Virus record (IMG/VR): IMGVR_UViG_3300034198_004250
Span: 1-27,086 of that record
Length of the DNA: 27,086 nt
Origin: a virus
Reading direction: 5' to 3' (one strand)
Positions within the stretch are counted from its first letter, which is position 1; each line of letters opens with the position of its first letter. Both the position numbers and the translations under genes were made by a program. Shown here one piece after another: positions 2,304 through 20,801 of the stretch. The notes under the pieces are model-generated. The model worked only from the letters and a program-made list of their open reading frames with translations, ran no database searches and was not told where the DNA came from.

Positions 2304-2495
2304 GCTCTTTATTCCTTCTTTTTAGTCGTCCTAAGACATATCCGTTTGGTTGATTATTCTCAACACAATAAATTTCTTTGTTATTTATAGGATCATTGTA
2401 CCAACGCTTTCCAGCGGCCGCTCCAACGACTCCATATCTCGGATGATTTTTTCCAGTTATTCCATACATGTGATTATATGATGTTTATGTGTCAT
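2290..2495 (-). pseudogene. Degraded HNH-type homing endonuclease remnant
   Basis: An ATG at 2495 opens a 12-codon peptide MTHKHHIITCME. This resembles the THKHHIIPKH start typical of phage HNH homing endonucleases. In another frame, from ATG 2469 to the stop at 2290, lies a 59-residue peptide. It contains GKNHPRYGVVG, GKRWYN and GYVLGRLKRRNK, resembling the C-terminal modular DNA-binding part of such enzymes. The catalytic middle is missing and the frames differ, so I read it as an internally deleted, frameshifted remnant. The 59-residue part could still be translated. Base composition is more AT-rich than the flanking genes. Confidence 0.6.
2392..2399 (-). promoter_or_regulatory. Late-type promoter TATAAATA inside the HNH remnant
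   Basis: A perfect T4 late consensus on the minus strand, about 90 bases before the structural gene starting at 2303. It may drive the 2303-to-primase late genes, or be a leftover of the homing endonuclease gene. Confidence 0.45.
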
Positions 2496-2507
2496 TTGTT
2501 TATATTC

Positions 2508-2672
2508 TCAGTCGCTTACTGTATAGTCGGTATGGTCGTGACTGGGACTGACCCCCGAATAGTCCTGATTAGCACCTCGCAGCGGGGACGAGGTAGAAGT
2601 CGGGGCGCTAGGCTCCGACTTCTTTTTCTTGTCTTGTTTCTTAGCTTCGACGAAGCTTAAGAATTTCCTCAT
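2508..2672 (-). CDS. Short protein with capsid-targeting-like N-terminus
   Basis: This 54-residue protein begins MRKFLSFVEAKKQDKKKK. The opening resembles the MKxFxxFLxEA leader shared by several genes of this operon and T4 internal proteins, although the cleavage-like triplet is F-V-E/A rather than L-x-E. The remainder is low-complexity (S, P, T, then D, Y, S) and has no recognisable domain. The ATG overlaps the TGA of the large mosaic protein (ATGA), so translation is coupled. The stop lies just before the homing-endonuclease remnant. It could be an internal head peptide or a C-terminally truncated internal protein. Confidence 0.65.
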   Translation of the reverse strand: MRKFLSFVEAKKQDKKKKSEPSAPTSTSSPLRGANQDYSGVSPSHDHTDYTVSD

Positions 2673-4246
2673 TGCTCTCCCAGAGCTTTCTTGAACGAGG
2701 CGTGTGAAGCCTGCAGCTTCTGCGTGAACTCATCCTTTTCTGGAGCTTTCTTGAACGAGCCGTGCATGTCCAGCGCCTTCTGAACGTGCGCAGAAGATAC
2801 CTTGACCTTCGAGCCGTCATGGAAGTGAATCGGACGGTTGGCCGCGCCCAGCGACTTAGCCTTGCGCAGCTGCATCACGATATGCTCCGGACCGTCATGC
2901 TGATCCTCGTCGTCGCCCTTGGCTTCGTTTAGCTTAGCGAGAATGCGAGCTGTCTCGTCGTCGGAGAGAGTGACTTCTTCTTTCATACGTCTCTTGATCT
3001 CATTCTTTTTCTTATCAAGATCTTGCTTATGAATCATACCAGACTGAGTCTTACGCATCTTATCTGCTGTAAGATTTGATGCTAACTTATCTTTTCCTGG
3101 TCTTGGTGTCCCACGACCCCAATATTCCGCAAATGCAGCATTATCAGCATGCGCTGCAGCCTTATCACCGAACTTTCTCTTGATATGGCCTCTTAAACGA
3201 TCATGTTGATCAGACATCTTATCTGTCATTTGATCACCGACGCTAGCAGCATAAGCATATGCCTTAATAGCTTTTCCTTTTGAAATTTCGTCGATCTGCT
3301 CGGCTTCTTCCTTGGCATGCGACTTGATCTTGTCGACAAACCAGCCATTCTTATGATCCGGGAACTGCTGCTTAGCAACTTCGATGGCGTGCTTATCGTT
3401 CTTGGCTGTTACGCCGACACCACGAGCTGAACGAGCGCCTACCTTAGTTCCCTTCTGGAACCAAACGGTATGAGTCATGCCTTCTTCGATATGCTCGAGT
3501 TCTTCCTTACGGAGCATCTTGAAGTCCTGAGCGTCGAGCTTGCCGTTGTGGTTCTTGTCGAGCTTCTTTTGGCCGCCCTTCAGCTCCTCGTTGGCAGTCT
3601 TCATCTTCGGAGAGATGTCGACCTTAGTCTTCTTGCCGTCCTTGCCGACCATCTTGTCCTGATCGTCGTCTCCTTCGTCCTCGTCGTCGGAGTCGTCGTC
3701 CTTCTTCGCCTTCGTGTCCTTGTCGTCGGCGTCATCGTCTTCCTTAGACGGCTTCTTCTTGTCCTCGTCGTCCTTCTTGGCGAACGGATTCTTGCCCTCG
3801 AGCACGCCGCGAACCGCTGCTACTAGGTCGTCCGACAGGTTATGGTACTTCTGAAGCGTCATCGATTTCTCCTGATTTTCGTCGATTATTTTGTTCTTGA
3901 TTTCTGCTTGCTTAACCAGTTTAGCACGGACGTCCATAGGATCTTTGGCCGTGTCAGGACGACCGACATTGACGACTTTACGTCTGAGATCGGTATTCCT
4001 ATTCGGGTTGGTCTGTTCAGATACTCGCTTTTCCAGGTCGCTCTGCATAGCTTTTCTTTCCTTCTCTCTGCGAGATATCTCTTTTGTCTTTGCCTGTTCC
4101 TGATCGCGCTTGTCATTGATAGCCTTCGTCTCTAGGTCCTGCTTACGAGCTGTACCTAGGGCAATACCAGAGCTGGCTTTCTTTGTCATACGAGACTTGA
4201 AAGCCGAGCTAGATCCGACAAACTTACCCTGCGTTATAGTTCCCAT
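2669..4246 (-). CDS. Mosaic Asp/Lys-rich protein with EF-hand; candidate head-core polyprotein
   Basis: This 525-residue, very charged protein has four sections. Residues 1-150 are a basic helical region. Residues ~155-205 are an extreme D/K/E tract. Around residue 230 is one canonical EF-hand loop, DKNHNGKLDAQDF, which suggests Ca2+ binding. Modules then follow, divided by IEE/G, IDE/I and LNE/A, sites resembling the T4 gp21 prohead protease consensus (L/I-x-E then a small residue). The DNA for the module from about 2990 to 3290 is clearly more AT-rich than its surroundings, suggesting recent insertion. Neighbours are Dps-like and small internal-protein-like genes. I infer a scaffold/core or internal head protein; no enzyme domain is visible. 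Confidence 0.7.
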   Translation of the reverse strand: MGTITQGKFVGSSSAFKSRMTKKASSGIALGTARKQDLETKAINDKRDQEQAKTKEISRREKERKAMQSDLEKRVSEQTNPNRNTDLRRKVVNVGRPDTAKDPMDVRAKLVKQAEIKNKIIDENQEKSMTLQKYHNLSDDLVAAVRGVLEGKNPFAKKDDEDKKKPSKEDDDADDKDTKAKKDDDSDDEDEGDDDQDKMVGKDGKKTKVDISPKMKTANEELKGGQKKLDKNHNGKLDAQDFKMLRKEELEHIEEGMTHTVWFQKGTKVGARSARGVGVTAKNDKHAIEVAKQQFPDHKNGWFVDKIKSHAKEEAEQIDEISKGKAIKAYAYAASVGDQMTDKMSDQHDRLRGHIKRKFGDKAAAHADNAAFAEYWGRGTPRPGKDKLASNLTADKMRKTQSGMIHKQDLDKKKNEIKRRMKEEVTLSDDETARILAKLNEAKGDDEDQHDGPEHIVMQLRKAKSLGAANRPIHFHDGSKVKVSSAHVQKALDMHGSFKKAPEKDEFTQKLQASHASFKKALGEQ

Positions 4247-4683
4247 TACGACCTCGTATAAGCCCTAAGCATCCAGTCATTCTTATAGTGCTTATCGATA
4301 CGATCTTCAAAGAAGTTTACTAGGCCGAACGCCTTAGCGTCCTCTGCCATGGCTCGAGCCTTGACTAGCTCCTCGATGACCTTAGCGTTGTCGTCTCTGA
4401 GCTTGGCGAGCATGCTGAGCGGAGTGGGAATGTTGACTTCGTCTTCTACTACCGACAGCTCCTTGAAGCGGCTCAAAGAACCCGGAGCGTAAGAGCGAGT
4501 AGAGCGAATCTCTTCGGCGATAGCGTCTACTGATGCCCACCACTCGTTGTACAGCCCGTCCAGGAAGGAGTGGTACTGACCGAAGTCCGGGCCCTCTACG
4601 TTCCAGTGGTAGTTGTGTGCCTTGAGATACAGGGCAAATACTGAAGCCTGTACCACCTTCATCTGTGCGATCAGTTTTTCCAT
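4246..4683 (-). CDS. Dps-like ferritin (DNA-protecting, iron-oxidising)
   Basis: The start is set at ATG 4683, which has AGGAG six bases upstream, giving 145 residues. All Dps ferroxidase ligands are present at the family spacing: H26 (in YHWNVEG), H38, D53 and E57 (in VDAIAEEI). Dps proteins form 12-subunit shells that oxidise and store iron and shield DNA from oxidants. Some bind DNA through a lysine-rich tail, and no such N-terminal tail is seen here. The gene is in the late operon between the EF-hand mosaic protein (TAATG-type overlap) and a small protein with a capsid-targeting-like leader. It may therefore act late, during DNA packaging or inside the particle, rather than in stress response. 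Confidence 0.88.
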   Translation of the reverse strand: MEKLIAQMKVVQASVFALYLKAHNYHWNVEGPDFGQYHSFLDGLYNEWWASVDAIAEEIRSTRSYAPGSLSRFKELSVVEDEVNIPTPLSMLAKLRDDNAKVIEELVKARAMAEDAKAFGLVNFFEDRIDKHYKNDWMLRAYTRS

Positions 4684-4691
4684 GATATCTC

Positions 4692-4979
4692 CTAGCAATT
4701 CCAGGCGCGGCGAGACCAGTAGTTAGCGCTGGTCTTCTTGTTTAAGTTACCCTGACCCGACGAACGGGCGCAGTAAGATCTCTTTCGACCCGGCTGGTCC
4801 TTCTTGATGGTCATGTTCTTATCGCCGAAGTTGACCTTCTTGACGTTACCGGTCTTTGGATCCTTCACGAACACCTTAGACTTCTTGACGTCGCCCTTCA
4901 TTGGCTTGTTCAAGGGAACTTCTCTTCCCTTGTACTGCGCCTCGAGGATGACTCTCTTGATGGTGTCTAGTGTGCTCAT
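4692..4979 (-). CDS. Conserved small phage protein (DUF5872-like) with capsid-targeting-like leader
   Basis: This 95-residue protein carries KVFVKDPKTGNVKKVNFGD and a C-terminal SANYWSRRAWNC block. From memory these match a small family widespread in marine phages (DUF5872-like). It is basic and ends in Cys. The N-terminus MSTLDTIKRVILEAQ fits an amphipathic leader with an I-L-E/A site resembling gp21 cleavage sites. A perfect late promoter (4998-5005) lies about 18 bases upstream of the start, with GGA at a suitable distance. Function unknown; late expression and a head association are inferred. Confidence 0.75.
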   Translation of the reverse strand: MSTLDTIKRVILEAQYKGREVPLNKPMKGDVKKSKVFVKDPKTGNVKKVNFGDKNMTIKKDQPGRKRSYCARSSGQGNLNKKTSANYWSRRAWNC

Positions 4980-4997
4980 GTTAATTCCGTTTTGCAG

Positions 4998-5005
4998 TAT
5001 TTATA
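4998..5005 (-). promoter_or_regulatory. Late-type promoter TATAAATA
   Basis: A perfect late consensus on the minus strand in the short gap before the 4979 start codon. It would re-initiate late transcription for the DUF5872-like, Dps-like and mosaic-protein genes. Confidence 0.75.
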
Positions 5006-5008
5006 ACT

Positions 5009-5566
5009 TCACTGACCCGGCGTATCTTTCTTGTAGATACGAACCGCCGAGTCTGTGGCGTCAAAGCGCGAGTCTGGATCGTCTGAGTCTCTTGACTGCG
5101 GTTCTACCGTCTCTTTGGTCTTGAAATGCTTGGAGCTGTCATGAGCTGGCTTCAATACTCGCTTGATGAGCTTGACTCTCTTTGCGGCCGGATTCGTAGC
5201 CTCTTGCATTTCGACTGATTCCTTTTGTGTACGCTTTTCATAGGCTGTCTTTTTGCTATGAAGGGCGCCGTGCACTTCCTTGACTTTCTTGAATAGCTGG
5301 TTATTCTGCTGGTCGCTGTCTACTACGTTACCGGCGACGTATCTCTGAATGGCGTCTGGAAAGGCGGCCGGGTCTCCGGAGACGTATCCCATGCCACGAA
5401 CTTCGCCGCTCGTGGCAGTCATCTCCTCGTTAGCCTGCGAAGCTTTGAAGTCAGCTGCGGTTGGACGGCCCTTCTCTCCCGGTCTACGCATGCGCTCGCC
5501 AGAACCTTGCTTAATTCTCTTGCGCTTAGCGTGAATGTTGTCCCAGAGACCCCTCTTCTTACTCAT
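5009..5566 (-). CDS. Conserved T4-like phage structural-region protein
   Basis: This 185-residue, highly basic, hydrophilic protein begins MSKKRGLWDNIHAKRKRIK and continues SGERMRRPGEKGRPTAADF. I recognise this opening from a family found beside virion genes in many marine phages. The rest is disordered-looking and charge-rich, with VEMQEATNP near residue 123 as a weak protease-site-like motif. No catalytic motif is present. The ATG overlaps the stop of the 440-residue structural gene (TAATG), so the two are coupled. The exact virion role is not known to me. Confidence 0.7.
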   Translation of the reverse strand: MSKKRGLWDNIHAKRKRIKQGSGERMRRPGEKGRPTAADFKASQANEEMTATSGEVRGMGYVSGDPAAFPDAIQRYVAGNVVDSDQQNNQLFKKVKEVHGALHSKKTAYEKRTQKESVEMQEATNPAAKRVKLIKRVLKPAHDSSKHFKTKETVEPQSRDSDDPDSRFDATDSAVRIYKKDTPGQ

Positions 5567-6888
5567 TAGTACACTACCTCTTCGAAGATGATGCCGCCGG
5601 CCGCGTTTGACGTACTGGTACCAGCCGTGACGGCCAGAGTAAACGTTGTCGTAGTATTAGCCAGAGAGTTTCTCTCGAGCTGATACTTGAACAGGCTGTC
5701 TACCAGCTGAACAGAACCGGCTGCCTGAACTGTAGACGTGATGTATCCAGAAGTTACGGAGTTTCCGCCGGATACGGTAGCTGTCGTATTGGTATTATAC
5801 TGAACTATAGAATCTGTGGTCACGTTTGCCCACACCGCGCCGTTAATAGTCGCACCTACTAAGATCTTGTATCTATAGTGGGACGCGTTAACGGGAAGCA
5901 GGCTTATCTGCTTTGGCACTACGACGGCGTCTGGAAACGCTGGATTCAGCCTGATCGACATCACCGGATAATAAGTACCCGCTGACGTGAGAGCTATCTG
6001 GCTAGCCGATGTTGGCTCGAGGCCGACTTCTCTCGACTTACCGATGAGTTCGTAGCCACCCTCCGATATCACAGACGAGCAGATCTGTTTTAGCGTGCTG
6101 GAACCAGAAGTCACTCCAGTATTCTCGATCTCGTATCTTACCGGCAGAGTAGCAGTCTGGATATAGGCACCCTTAGCAGCAGTGTCTATATTGGCGTGGT
6201 TGAATACGTGGCAGATGATGAGTTGACCATTGATGACGAATCCCATTCTGACAGACCCGACACCGAGCCACTCCATGTCGACAAACAGGATCTGCGGGTC
6301 GTCTAAGTTCAGAGTTATGAGAGAAGCTCCAGTGCCGTCGAGCTTGTCTACGTTCCAGCTAGCCTGATCTACAGGAGTGTTTACTACAGCACCTGTAACG
6401 GATGATCTCTCTACAAAGCATACTCCAGAAGTAGTTAGGCTTGAGCGCTCTAGATAAAACCCGTTGTTAGCTGTGAAGTGGCCGACGCGCTGACGAAGGT
6501 TTGTCTTGGCGGGATTCATGACAAACGTGCTAAGTATCTGTAAAGACTTACCAGGCTGATAAGCGAATACTTTAGTCGATTCTCTATATACCGATGCGCC
6601 GGAAGTGGTGCTGACGGTTAGGTCCACAGAAGCAGTATTGGCTATAAATCCAAATGAGCCGCCTGTAGTATTTGCGGTAGCAAACTTACCGTTGTCGCCG
6701 TAGCGATAGCTCGACTCAAACAGTGTGAACGGAAGCGAGGCGCGCGATCTACCGAAAGCGTCGACTGCCGCTCCAGACGGGTTAGCCGGTCCAATCAGAT
6801 TACCAAACTGATCGGCGAGCATGACGACCTCGAAGATCGTCCTCTCTTGATTTAAATACTGATGCGTGTCTTTTCTAAACTGTGCCAT
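5566..6888 (-). CDS. Virion structural protein (adhesin/tail-type domain)
   Basis: This 440-residue protein is rich in S, T, A, V and G. The central block FVDMEWLGVGSVRMGFVING, followed by HVFNHANI and LPVRYEIENTG, is a domain I recognise from many phage structural and tail-associated proteins. The N-terminus includes AVDAFGRSRASLPFTLFES, another block common in such proteins. The C-terminal third is low-complexity and T/S-rich, which suits a beta-structured external region. It is coupled by a TAATG overlap on both sides. I cannot tell whether it is fibre, baseplate or head decoration. Confidence 0.75.
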   Translation of the reverse strand: MAQFRKDTHQYLNQERTIFEVVMLADQFGNLIGPANPSGAAVDAFGRSRASLPFTLFESSYRYGDNGKFATANTTGGSFGFIANTASVDLTVSTTSGASVYRESTKVFAYQPGKSLQILSTFVMNPAKTNLRQRVGHFTANNGFYLERSSLTTSGVCFVERSSVTGAVVNTPVDQASWNVDKLDGTGASLITLNLDDPQILFVDMEWLGVGSVRMGFVINGQLIICHVFNHANIDTAAKGAYIQTATLPVRYEIENTGVTSGSSTLKQICSSVISEGGYELIGKSREVGLEPTSASQIALTSAGTYYPVMSIRLNPAFPDAVVVPKQISLLPVNASHYRYKILVGATINGAVWANVTTDSIVQYNTNTTATVSGGNSVTSGYITSTVQAAGSVQLVDSLFKYQLERNSLANTTTTFTLAVTAGTSTSNAAGGIIFEEVVY

Positions 6889-7511
6889 TATTCATGCCCC
6901 GCCGAGTTGCGTACGTCATGGAATAGCTCCTTGGCGTGTTCATGAGATACGTGTGAAGGAATGCCCTTCTTGAATTCTTTGAAGTTGTTGTTTTTGGCGT
7001 GCTCACGCATCTTCGAGGCAGACATTCCCTCGGCCCCCTCTGCGTCTGGATCGCGATGGCCGGCCGACACGACACTGATCTTCTTGAAGCTGAACGGAAT
7101 GTGACCCTTCTTGTCTGGCTTGCCGTTATATGTGTTCAATAGCTTATGATACTCGTGCACGCGGTCGGACCCGGCGACCATGATAAGATGGTCATGACCC
7201 GCCTTGTTTAGACGAGCGGCATGATGCAGCAGCGTGGGCTCGGCTTTGGTGGCAGCCCTGATATGCGTGTTGGGAAAGAAGCGCTTGGCGTGCTTTACTT
7301 TCGTCTCTGGATCCAGCGGATTCTTTGCCTTGTCGTGTGATCCGGACAGGATGACCTGATGATGTGCGCCGTGTTTCTTCGCCAGCTCATGGACCTTATC
7401 TACCAGCTTGGCATGACCGGTGGTAGGCGGGTTCATGCGGCCAAAGGCCATGACCACGGGACGCCTGGGAGCATCGGCTTCTTCAGCCAGGAAGTCTCTA
7501 TACTTCTTCAT
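6888..7511 (-). CDS. Cytidylyl/adenylyltransferase-fold nucleotidyltransferase
   Basis: This 207-residue protein has the fold's signature GRMNPPTTGHAKLVD (nucleotide-binding TxGH, residues ~24-38). Near residues 162-168 is MSASKMR, which resembles the ISSTxxR phosphate-binding motif. Enzymes of this class (NMN adenylyltransferase and relatives) transfer a nucleotide from an NTP to a phosphorylated acceptor; the acceptor is unknown here. The first ten residues, MKKYRDFLAE, precede the catalytic domain and look like a capsid-targeting leader (L-A-E). The start overlaps the end of the ligase-like gene by 14 bases. Involvement in NAD metabolism is possible but not shown. Confidence 0.8.
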   Translation of the reverse strand: MKKYRDFLAEEADAPRRPVVMAFGRMNPPTTGHAKLVDKVHELAKKHGAHHQVILSGSHDKAKNPLDPETKVKHAKRFFPNTHIRAATKAEPTLLHHAARLNKAGHDHLIMVAGSDRVHEYHKLLNTYNGKPDKKGHIPFSFKKISVVSAGHRDPDAEGAEGMSASKMREHAKNNNFKEFKKGIPSHVSHEHAKELFHDVRNSAGHE

Positions 7512-8712
7512 TTTTTTCTTTCTTGGCCTGCTGCATCTTACCGGCCAGGAAGTTCTGGCGCGAGAATTGTTTTCTATTTACGAATTTCGTCATGTCACCG
7601 TGCTTGCTGACGGCCACTGCTCCCTCGGGTCCGGTCTTGGCTCCGCCGATGTGATGCTCAAATTCCTGGTTCTTTGCCATGACATGGGTCAGGACGTCTT
7701 TGGCGTCTTGAAGATGCTTATGCAGTTCCAGCGCCTGGTCGTAGTGCTTCTTATTTGACGACACGTGGTGAAGGAAAGCGTCTAGCTTCTCTCTACGCTG
7801 CTGCTTAGCCTTGTCGCTCTTTACCTTGTCCATGTCTTTGGTAATAGAGTTCGTGACGTGCTTGACGAACCCCTCAGTAGACGGGTGTCCTCCCTTACGG
7901 ACCATGTCGTTGACGTGCGCTTCCAGGGGCACGGCATGACCCTTGATCTTATCCAGAGCGTCGGGATGCATCTTGGCGTAGGCGGCCTTCGCCTTGGACA
8001 TGGCGTCGTGATACTTCTGCTGGTCCTTTGGCATGTAGTGCGAAGAGTCTGCCTTGATGGTAGGATCGATGTTGTGTACGTCGGGATGGTGCTTGAACTT
8101 GTCTCTGTCTACGTTTGGCGTGGCGTGCATGTTATGCAGGTCGCCTTTGCCCTCGTACTTGGTATGAACCACGACGCCGAACTTAGAGTTCTTGATGGCT
8201 TTGCCCTGAGCGCTGTCTTCGTCCGTAGAATACGTGATGGTATTTGGTGTGAAGCTTAGCTTCTTGCCGTGCTTCTGAATGTCTTCCTTGGTGTGCATGA
8301 CGTCGCCCTGATACACGCCGGCTTTTGGAGTGATCTTGGGCAGGTGCTTCAGAGCTTTCTTTAGCTTATCGACCAGGCCGGGAGCGTGACCGTGATTCTG
8401 CTCGATATCCTTCTCAGTGTAGTTGATCTTGGGATTCTTGTTGAATACCGACTTGCTGCCTACGAAGAAGCGGCCGTTCTTGGGATGGTACCCGAAGACG
8501 ATAGACGGCGCGCCGTCGTACTTCGTGGTGATGTGCATGTCTGACTTCTTGCCGAGCAGAGCGGCGTGTGTCCCCTCCAGAGCATGACCGGCCTTCTTTA
8601 CACCCTCGTTGCCGGAGTGAATGATGTGGTCTTCTAGGTGCGTCAGGTGCTTCAGGGGCTTGCCGCCCTCTTCCTCTGCCGCCTCTGTCAGGAAATTCAC
8701 GAAGCTCTTCAT
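7498..8712 (-). CDS. Ligase-like covalent nucleotidyltransferase (DUF6267-type phage protein)
   Basis: This 404-residue, His/Lys-rich protein shows motif spacing like the DNA/RNA ligase superfamily. Motif I is TTKYDGAPS (K64 is the candidate lysine for AMP attachment), then RFFVGSKS follows. GVYQGDVM (~132-139) lies in the motif III position, with Asp where Glu is usual. FGVVVHTKYEG (~178-188) lies in the motif IV position. From memory it matches an uncharacterised family of T4-like marine phages (DUF6267). The N-terminus MKSFVNFLTEAA resembles a capsid-targeting leader with L-T-E/A. It is coupled to the HAD gene (ATGA) and overlaps the next nucleotidyltransferase, so an end-processing and sealing module is plausible but unproven. 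Confidence 0.65.
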   Translation of the reverse strand: MKSFVNFLTEAAEEEGGKPLKHLTHLEDHIIHSGNEGVKKAGHALEGTHAALLGKKSDMHITTKYDGAPSIVFGYHPKNGRFFVGSKSVFNKNPKINYTEKDIEQNHGHAPGLVDKLKKALKHLPKITPKAGVYQGDVMHTKEDIQKHGKKLSFTPNTITYSTDEDSAQGKAIKNSKFGVVVHTKYEGKGDLHNMHATPNVDRDKFKHHPDVHNIDPTIKADSSHYMPKDQQKYHDAMSKAKAAYAKMHPDALDKIKGHAVPLEAHVNDMVRKGGHPSTEGFVKHVTNSITKDMDKVKSDKAKQQRREKLDAFLHHVSSNKKHYDQALELHKHLQDAKDVLTHVMAKNQEFEHHIGGAKTGPEGAVAVSKHGDMTKFVNRKQFSRQNFLAGKMQQAKKEKNEEV

Positions 8713-9419
8713 GTACCGTCCTTGATTCTTTTGCGTTCGTCTGGCGAGTAGAACGACATGCCGCCGTGCTCACTCTCGTCATTGAAGCGATTTGCTACAG
8801 CCTTATTTACTTGCGTGTCTCCGGTGTCTTTATTATGTTGTACGTGATGGGCCACCAGCTTGACTTCGGGATGATGATGCTTCAGGTTTAGAAAGTGCGT
8901 GAGGTTGTCTTCGGAGTCGTCGTAGAGATGGACTTCGTGGTACCCGTGCTGCTTGATCAGGCTGGACACGATGTTGCGCTTACGCTCGGCCGGCGTGCCC
9001 TTGTCCAAGTTACCGGCTCGACGGACGTGTACCTTGTCGATGTCGATGCCGTGCTTCTTCAGATGCGCGCCGAACTTATCCTTGTCGTCCATGTCAGAAC
9101 GGGCCGTGAGGATCTCTACGTGCGGGTTGCGGCGATGGATGTTCTTCAGGCGCTTGATCATCTTGTTGATCGGGTGCGCAGACTTGGCAAATGTGTCGGC
9201 CGACTTGAATTCAGAGAAATCGTAGCTGTGATGCGGCTCTAGCTTATGATTGTTGAACTGTACGTTGGTCAGCGACTTGACGCGCTTTCCCTCAGGATTC
9301 TTGACATGAATCTTTGCTTCCGTCTTCTTGTCCGGATAATGAAACAGCGTCTCGTCCATGTCAAACACATGGAGGATCTTGCGCTTCTGTTCAAGTAAGA
9401 GTTCTGATAGTGATAGCAT
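8709..9419 (-). CDS. HAD-family phosphatase (polynucleotide 3'-phosphatase-like)
   Basis: This 236-residue protein carries the HAD motifs in order. Motif I is DMDETLF (D20 nucleophile, D22), motif II is LTARSDM (T105), and motif IV is HLYDDSEDN (D167, D168). Lysines lie between motifs II and IV. The layout resembles the phosphatase half of polynucleotide kinase-phosphatases. Its place directly before a ligase-like gene fits end-healing, but a small-molecule phosphatase is not excluded. The start MLSLSELLLEQK fits a capsid-targeting-like leader (L-L-E). The ATG overlaps the previous stop (TAATG) and its own stop overlaps the next ATG. Confidence 0.8.
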   Translation of the reverse strand: MLSLSELLLEQKRKILHVFDMDETLFHYPDKKTEAKIHVKNPEGKRVKSLTNVQFNNHKLEPHHSYDFSEFKSADTFAKSAHPINKMIKRLKNIHRRNPHVEILTARSDMDDKDKFGAHLKKHGIDIDKVHVRRAGNLDKGTPAERKRNIVSSLIKQHGYHEVHLYDDSEDNLTHFLNLKHHHPEVKLVAHHVQHNKDTGDTQVNKAVANRFNDESEHGGMSFYSPDERKRIKDGT

Positions 9420-10384
9420 TATACTTCTTCTGCGCCGGATCTTCCAGACAGTAGTTTTACTGGATATATTCCGAGTCTGGCTCCATCATAACGTTTTCCA
9501 TTAAACTCAAATCCACGCCCCTCACGATATGTAGCACCTAACACCGGCAAATAACCTCCGGTAAAATGCTTAAGATCTGGATTTGTTGACATATGACTAG
9601 AGAAAGTTAATTCATACATATCATCATTTTTTTTATTAAGTATCGGAGTACCCTGTCCAATCAAAGTAACATTTTCTTCACTATGTTTTGAATTACCAAA
9701 ATTTGGACCGTAGATGGACATACCAATAAGATGCTGATCTTTTACTTTGGTATACAGAGGCTTCAATAATTTTCCGTTTTTTATATTTTGTGCCACGTTA
9801 GCCATGAAGCTTTTTACTTCTCTGTGGTTATAAATCGCGGCGCCAGCTTTTTCCGTAACACCACCATACTGCTGAAAAGCTTCAGGACCACCTGCTTTTT
9901 TGTGTGAAATGAATATCACCTTTTGCTTAGACTTATTGATTAGCGCAAAATCTGCCTTCGGTGTTCCGCTTACATTTACTACGCCTACTATGTCCTTATA
10001 AACATTCTTGCCAACTTTGATATCAATAGGATGACCAATTTGCTTGAACATTGCATCAAATGACGCAATGGCCATCTGTTCATCTTTGAGAGTATTTTTA
10101 CCGGTGGGCTTTCTAATTTTCGTTATTAGTATCAGGCCAGATTTACTTCCAGCACGTACCTTAGCATATTTCTTATTATCTTTTACAGTTATATTTTTGT
10201 CTGTAATGTAAATTTTTGTCTTGGACTTTAGTACGTCTATGGCTTTCATAGAAGAATCATAGAGCGTAGCATCGCTATCATACTCTATTTCATATTCTTT
10301 TTTAGAATCCCAGAGCGGATTATTCTTGACATACTTATCCCATGCCAAGATATTACCAGTGCTCATGGATCCTAAACTAGCCAT
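9419..10384 (-). CDS. Unknown AT-rich accessory protein (ISHK-motif family)
   Basis: This 321-residue protein is encoded in DNA much more AT-rich than its neighbours, suggesting recent acquisition. The middle reads ADFALINKSKQKVIF followed by ISHKKAGG and FQQYGG. I have the impression of similar D...ISHK...F.Q.GG segments in other phage proteins of unknown function. The acidic residue, beta strand and lysine order faintly recalls PD-(D/E)xK nucleases, but the expected second acidic residue is replaced (SHK), so I do not call it a nuclease. It is the first gene of the coupled late operon. A late-like promoter (AATAAATA) lies 20 bases upstream. Confidence 0.65.
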   Translation of the reverse strand: MASLGSMSTGNILAWDKYVKNNPLWDSKKEYEIEYDSDATLYDSSMKAIDVLKSKTKIYITDKNITVKDNKKYAKVRAGSKSGLILITKIRKPTGKNTLKDEQMAIASFDAMFKQIGHPIDIKVGKNVYKDIVGVVNVSGTPKADFALINKSKQKVIFISHKKAGGPEAFQQYGGVTEKAGAAIYNHREVKSFMANVAQNIKNGKLLKPLYTKVKDQHLIGMSIYGPNFGNSKHSEENVTLIGQGTPILNKKNDDMYELTFSSHMSTNPDLKHFTGGYLPVLGATYREGRGFEFNGKRYDGARLGIYPVKLLSGRSGAEEV

Positions 10385-10563: not shown

Positions 10564-10571
10564 TATTTATA
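10564..10571 (-). promoter_or_regulatory. Late-type promoter TATAAATA over the stop codon of the 62-residue gene
   Basis: A perfect late consensus that includes the TAA stop of the upstream gene. It points into the short gene-free unit closed by the 10418-10444 terminator. Confidence 0.6.
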
Positions 10572-20687: not shown

Positions 20688-20718
20688 CAAAAGTTCAGTA
20701 AACCGGTATGCTTGAATT

Positions 20719-20795
20719 TGGTCGGAGTGGAGAGATTCGAACTCCCGACCCACTGCTCCCAAAGCAGTTGCGCTACCAGGCTGCGCTACACTCCG
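20719..20795 (-). tRNA. tRNA-Pro (TGG)
   Basis: Acceptor CGGAGTG/CACTCCG; anticodon stem ACTGC/GCAGT with loop TTTGGGA (anticodon TGG); CCA encoded. Confidence 0.93.
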
Positions 20796-20801
20796 AAAAA
20801 A

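Follow-up and report, generated by a model that had tools for sequence, protein, structure and literature searches.

The internal proteins IPI, IPII and IPIII of phage T4 start with a ten-residue leader and are cleaved at an L/I-x-E triplet (Mullaney and Black). By mutagenesis in T4, residues 4 and 7 of the IPIII leader are the main ones for targeting, and residues 8 and 10 are those for processing (PMC9026906). Leaders of this type appear to be present on five proteins encoded in a 27,086-base virus fragment from IMG/VR (record IMGVR_UViG_3300034198_004250), the whole of which is referred to here as the window. The five are a HAD phosphatase, a DUF6267 protein, a nucleotidyltransferase and two small proteins of 95 and 54 residues. 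The bodies of the T4 internal proteins are small and basic, with IPI and IPIII acting against host defences, whereas those of the window include a ligase-like protein, a phosphatase and a nucleotidyltransferase.

T4 Alt is a catalytic protein, an ADP-ribosyltransferase, that is packaged, trimmed by the gp21 protease and injected, as is proposed here for the window enzymes. It belongs to another enzyme family, and its propeptide has 7 residues as opposed to the 10 of the window leaders. For proteins of NAD+/ADP-ribose networks, including Nudix and ART enzymes, packaging in the heads of myoviruses has been predicted from gene fusions and context (PMC9503650). That work shares the idea of packaged, injected enzymes, and the portion of it available describes neither the IPIII leader nor the window families. 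Among open-licence papers, no report was found on DUF6267, on DUF5872 or on a capsid-targeting sequence on such enzymes. The T4 leader and packaged enzymes are already known; an IPIII-type leader that serves as an exchangeable tag for the enzyme set of the window was not found in these papers.

A shared leader on five proteins

All five N-termini lie on the minus strand where a first-pass annotation of this DNA had placed them (Table 1). The fixed register of IPIII was written as the rule M..[FYLIWM]..[FYLIWM][LIVM].E. This is matched by three of the 52 open reading frames (ORFs) of the window, those of the HAD, DUF6267 and nucleotidyltransferase proteins, which are three consecutive genes. 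With shuffled N-termini, 0.07 matches are expected in the window. Against a background of internal methionines (10 matches in 6,678), the probability of at least three matches in 45 genes is 5e-5, a value that does not yet count the adjacency of the genes. Among the 280 ORFs of T4, only IPII, IPIII, gp24 and gp61.1 match. The L/I-x-E-type triplet that had been reported in four of the five N-termini, with F-V-E in the fifth, is indeed there. It stands in exact register in the three enzymes and is shifted in the 95-residue protein, where ILE/A lies three residues later (the slash marks the predicted cut). The register of the 54-residue protein is one residue short, with F-V-E/A.

Positions 4, 7, 8 and 10 are kept across the homologues of DUF6267 (about 100), HAD (27) and nucleotidyltransferase (45) that were examined. 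In 57 DUF6267 N-termini, which were not selected for the motif, these positions hold 2.98, 2.68, 3.08 and 2.98 bits of information, compared with only 1.2-1.9 bits at positions 2, 3, 5, 6, 9 and 11-14. The gp23 site of T4 (AFGSFLTE/A) shares the string F-x-x-F-L-T-E/A with the DUF6267 leader of the window (KSFVNFLTE/A).

Separability of the leader from the enzyme domains

The DUF6267 protein is polynucleotide-ligase-like by its motifs and possibly also in its fold. Within the ligase motifs K64-x-D-G, E363-G-x-V and K376, the residues K64, D66, G67, E363, G364, V366 and K376 are invariant in 36 sequences. In structure comparison by VIA-align, the 50 best rows consist entirely of RNA and DNA ligases, with Z up to 9.3 (3.7 A over 185 residues); Foldseek alone gave a non-significant E of about 1. 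The gene has a 100% identical copy on another contig (L002).

The leader comes and goes while the domain stays, which is the outcome that the first-pass annotation had proposed to look for by alignment. The register is exact in 64 of 117 DUF6267 homologues and shifted in 24; among the other 29 are N-termini from which the leader is cleanly missing, for example MSKNTHLEHLED and MAKNTHLEHLED. The ligase-like domain is retained without a leader in the cyanophages P-HM1 and Syn1, in S-PM2, in the IMG/VR loci L147, L192 and L205, and in others. In a ten-protein alignment, the leader block is missing from P-HM1 and Syn1 and the domain aligns from HLEHxED onward. A 103-row tree of the domain, from which the leader was excluded, requires at least four changes of leader presence. 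In the AlphaFold model, residues 1-20 have a confidence (predicted local distance difference test, pLDDT) of about 33, compared with about 93 over most of the protein that follows, placing the leader outside the predicted fold. The leader is thus not an integral part of the fold, being absent from relatives that keep the domain and modelled with low confidence. In loci L148, L154 and L202, the DUF6267 leaders read MFSFKGF[ITF]T[KQ], with the targeting residues kept and the cleavage glutamate lost. These proteins are possibly targeted and left uncut, like the position-10 Asp mutant of T4. Bacterial matches to DUF6267 are mostly contigs of metagenome-assembled genomes, plausibly mis-binned phage, and no conclusion was drawn from them on cellular homologues.

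The HAD protein has the DxDxT, T/S, K and DD motifs, with D20, D22, T24, T105, K147, D167 and D168 invariant. With its active site intact, it resembles polynucleotide-kinase phosphatases, and the HAD domain of PDB entry 6cgj is matched at E 4.6e-5. Sequence searches of PDB with the DUF6267, HAD and nucleotidyltransferase proteins returned nothing meaningful. Nearly all of about 27 HAD homologues have exact or near-exact leaders, and the linker from leader to DMDET varies in length; the homologues in L181 and L182, 44% identical, have no leader. AlphaFold residues 5-10 have a pLDDT of about 48 (below 50) and fall outside the well-predicted fold.

The nucleotidyltransferase and virion data

The window nucleotidyltransferase is an orthologue of T4-GC190. 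The copies of Syn1, P-HM1 and S-SM1 are so labelled; DUF6267 (T4-GC71) is their neighbour, and they lie downstream of gp41. As a separate gene, the nucleotidyltransferase often has a leader of its own (MKSFVDFLTEE, MKSFLELVEE). It has none when fused behind DUF6267; the DUF6267 leader would then serve both domains.

Sullivan and colleagues detected “a putative citidylyltransferase (T4-GC190)” by mass spectrometry in purified S-SM1 virions (PMC3037559). This protein starts with the exact leader MKKFSAFLNE/A (N-terminus MKKFSAFLNEAERSF), which is not mentioned in the available portion of that report. It has 387 residues and extra domains, compared with the 207 residues of the window protein, and its DUF6267 neighbour has no leader. 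According to the same portion, GC190 is encoded by S-PM2 and was not detected in that virion (PMC3037559). In S-PM2 the nucleotidyltransferase domain is fused and leaderless, which lends weak support to the leader reading; the support is weak because the study also missed known T4-type structural proteins. The nucleotidyltransferases of the jumbo phages Deifobo, Kaldavass and Atu_ph07 were considered as leader-bearing and set aside, as they have no exact leader. No cytidyltransferase is named in the available portions of the Atu_ph07 and CBB proteome papers.

The 95- and 54-residue proteins

The first-pass annotation had called the 95-residue protein DUF5872-like, a name that did not hold, as a Pfam search as permissive as E 1 did not return this family. 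Its basic domain stands behind 78 distinct, unrelated upstream sequences, with starts 11 to 838 residues before the domain where these could be placed. Across these contexts, a glutamate lies three residues before the first tyrosine of the domain in 77 and is followed by alanine in 75, and the residue two before it is L, V, I, M or F in 75 of 78. Further upstream, the sequence is nearly random. Seven free-standing copies start M-A-(E, T or I)-Y. The initiator methionine is expected to be removed before alanine. Cutting of the joined copies after glutamate and loss of methionine from the free-standing ones would therefore give the same mature N-terminus. On these junctions, the domain is possibly a widespread internal head protein that is released by a protease. 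Its loci (L225-L304) include a contig of 345 kb (L289).

Homologues of the 54-residue protein have full-register leaders in L005 (MRRLSRIILEA), in L003 and L034 (MIKFRSWLIEA), and also in L317 and L319-L322. The short register recurs in L249 (MLRFKQFSE/A) and in a 65-residue gene of the complete genome C48C1 directly upstream of gp21 (MRTFKELRE/A). Because of this recurrence, the short register may also be functional. In L326, L331 and L332, sequence like that of the 54-residue protein forms part of proteins that are much larger.

Leaders on other proteins and the prohead protease

The exact leader is present on 27 of 1,361 proteins of other families in the IMG/VR loci (2.0%), compared with 0.15% for the internal methionines (odds ratio 13.5, p 7e-14). 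The bearers include an adenylate kinase (PF00406, 1.8e-40), a NUDIX protein, a deoxyribonucleotidase and a phrog_13937 protein. In C48C1, five of the six matches to a slightly relaxed pattern fall within 57-69 kb, around the same enzymes. T4 gp61.1 (NC_000866.4 18966-19130; L074, L340), a hypothetical protein of 54 residues, starts MKTFKEFIKED in the exact IPIII register. Like the gene for the 54-residue window protein, it lies in the gp41-gp61 interval. By its sequence, it is a candidate for an unrecognised internal protein of T4.

A gp21-type protease (PF03420) is encoded in all nine complete phage records checked, including T4. The major capsid proteins of six genomes have L-x-E near the N-terminus, as in C48C1 (GGFLTE/T).

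Gene setting

The window encodes T4-type replication genes, and none of the annotated phages is closely related to it at the DNA level. Its sole DNA similarity to these is a stretch annotated as tRNA-Pro, matching Rhizobium phages and an Agrobacterium phage, which is a weak hint of an alphaproteobacterial host. Exact TATAAATA elements, the T4-type late promoter, number 8 as against 0.46 expected. On the minus strand, they lie mostly 18-79 nucleotides (nt) ahead of genes, with one at 315 nt. Both groups of leader-bearing genes sit between the replication genes gp41 and gp61, and each is headed by an exact TATAAATA. By these elements, late expression of both groups is indicated. The earlier description of a single late operon is correct in substance, the elements preceding two groups of genes.

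Genes without a leader lie in the same run. The 321-residue protein has a phrog_13937 relative (L176:2240-3550) that does bear one. It was also considered as a homologue of a leader-bearing gene of Melnitz; this was rejected, as there is no BLASTP similarity and the PHROG families differ. A Dps/ferritin-like product, DNA-binding and made together with the cargo, could also sit in the head. Between its gene and that of the 54-residue protein lies the gene for a strongly charged protein of 525 residues with a weak EF-hand-like stretch. This was considered as a gp21-cut polyprotein, which is not claimed, as it has 3 [LIVM]xE[ASGT] sites as against 1.5 expected.

Table 1. Positions in the window of the leader-bearing genes, their leaders and neighbouring features
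Feature	Positions	Strand	Description
HAD phosphatase, 236 aa	8709..9419	-	DMDET / TAR / K / DD motifs intact; phrog_415, E 6e-12; N-terminus MLSLSELLLEQK
HAD leader	9390..9419	-	MLSLSELLLE; exact IPIII register (L4, L7, L8, E10)
DUF6267 protein, 404 aa	7498..8712	-	Polynucleotide-ligase-like; PF19782, 3e-96; N-terminus MKSFVNFLTEAA
DUF6267 leader	8683..8712	-	MKSFVNFLTE/A; exact register
Nucleotidyltransferase, 207 aa	6888..7511	-	CTP_transf-like, HIGH-type; PF01467, 2.3e-4; phrog_3041, 1e-61; N-terminus MKKYRDFLAEEA
Nucleotidyltransferase leader	7482..7511	-	MKKYRDFLAE/E; exact register
95-aa protein, basic domain	4692..4979	-	phrog_7595; no Pfam match above cut-off; N-terminus MSTLDTIKRVILEAQ
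95-aa leader / predicted cleavage junction	4941..4979	-	MSTLDTIKRVILE/A; [LVIM]-x-E/A kept in 78 unrelated contexts
54-aa protein	2508..2672	-	Homologues with full-register leaders; N-terminus MRKFLSFVEAKK
54-aa leader	2646..2672	-	MRKFLSFVE/A; short register (F4, F7, E9)
Virion structural protein, no leader	5566..6888	-	phrog_1645 “virion structural protein”, 1.7e-116; same gene run
321-aa protein, no leader	9419..10384	-	phrog_13937
Dps/ferritin-like protein, no leader	4246-4698		PF00210, 7.5e-21
525-aa charged protein	2669-4246		Between Dps and 54-aa genes
tRNA-Pro-annotated stretch	20716-20800		DNA similarity to annotated phages
T4-type late promoter TATAAATA	10564..10571	-	Heads the 321-aa/HAD/DUF6267/NTase (nucleotidyltransferase)/440-aa/185-aa group
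TATAAATA	4998..5005	-	19 nt before 95-aa gene; heads the 95-aa/Dps/525-aa/54-aa group
TATAAATA	2382..2389	-	79 nt before 249-aa gene

Origin and role of the shared N-termini

The exact register, the conservation of positions 4, 7, 8 and 10, the separability of the leader and the S-SM1 orthologue support what the first-pass annotation had proposed, namely that the shared N-termini are T4-type capsid-targeting leaders. Taken as a whole, a modular tag on unrelated enzymes that brings targeting, cleavage and injection is very probably the correct reading. The leaders would be propeptides, about 10 residues long, that can be removed. With its hydrophobic side chains at positions 4 and 7, the leader would dock its protein onto the core of the prohead, and a prohead protease of the gp21 type would act at [L/I/V]-x-E in positions 8-10. 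The HAD, DUF6267 and nucleotidyltransferase proteins and the two small proteins would be made late in infection and pulled into the prohead. They would be cut after the glutamate, enclosed with the DNA and delivered to the next cell with the genome. Packaging of the leader-bearing proteins is well supported. From the sequences, and with good support from their comparison, we infer trimming after the glutamate, and we likewise infer injection with the DNA, the same events in this phage, and a role in repair.

Several observations weigh against this. The leader of the 54-residue protein has no L/I-x-E, and in two proteins the predicted cut is followed by E or Q. The nucleotidyltransferase is present without a leader in P-HM1 and Syn1. 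The detection in S-SM1 virions, as given in the available portion of that source, does not prove an internal location or cleavage. In addition, no gp21-type protease or head genes were found in the 27-kb fragment.

Chance is rejected as the origin of the shared N-termini because of the shuffles and the internal-methionine control (0.07 expected matches; 0.15% as against 2.0%). Recombination can give the genes of an operon common 5′ ends, and MKxF starts are common here; however, positions 2, 3, 5, 6 and 9 vary far more than positions 4, 7, 8 and 10, and chance similarity or common descent, through composition or exchanged 5′ ends, is most improbable. It is only slightly less improbable that the N-termini are amphipathic helices with some other job unrelated to gp21, such as membrane or protein docking or a translation start context. 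AlphaFold does predict a helix of low confidence at residues 4-9 or 2-11, but E10 and L8 are strongly kept, the positions match those of the T4 leader mutagenesis, E/A becomes M/A in free-standing genes and the S-SM1 orthologue was detected by mass spectrometry.

A role in head assembly or DNA packaging deserves more weight and is still unlikely: the leader would bring proteins to the prohead core, and these would not be injected. In T4, gp21 also cuts the core proteins gp22, gp67 and gp68, which for the most part do not stay in the head (PMC9026906), the leader genes lie beside a head-and-packaging structural protein, and C48C1 has its short-register leader on the small gene next to gp21. Against this, the cargo is catalytic, unrelated (ligase-like, HAD, nucleotidyltransferase, adenylate kinase, NUDIX) and patchy, and related phages that lack the leader or the cargo still build heads. 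Moreover, the enzymatic internal protein of T4, Alt, is injected (PMC9026906).

Meaning for T4-like phages

With the leaders read as tags for packaged and injected cargo, end-healing by the HAD protein, sealing by the ligase-like protein and nucleotidyl transfer would make up a ready repair kit for RNA or other nucleic acids. This combination suggests nucleic-acid, perhaps tRNA, repair, and the kit would act against host defences of the first minute, such as tRNA or DNA cleavage. In T4, Pnkp and Rnl1 repair tRNA and are made after infection. By analogy with this pair, a 3′-phosphatase-type HAD protein and a protein of the RNA-ligase fold, the window counterparts would arrive ready-made.

It is conceivable, although slightly short of an even chance, that the leader is a general exchangeable cargo tag in marine and freshwater T4-like phages. 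Their heads would carry an injected enzyme kit, made up of an RNA-ligase-like sealer, an end-healing phosphatase, the nucleotidyltransferase, adenylate kinase, NUDIX and other proteins. Before any of the phage genes is read out, this kit would repair RNA or nucleotides in the face of host defence, with the 95-residue domain freed from polyproteins by the same protease. If true, the leader would be a readable address code, and genes of abundant T4-like phages that start with it would be predicted to travel in the particle. This would be the first naming, as far as was found, of enzymes that probably work within seconds of the start of infection. It would offer an explanation for the “cytidyltransferase” seen in cyanophage virions, and a direct way to ask whether RNA repair is injected by phages early enough to precede the defence.

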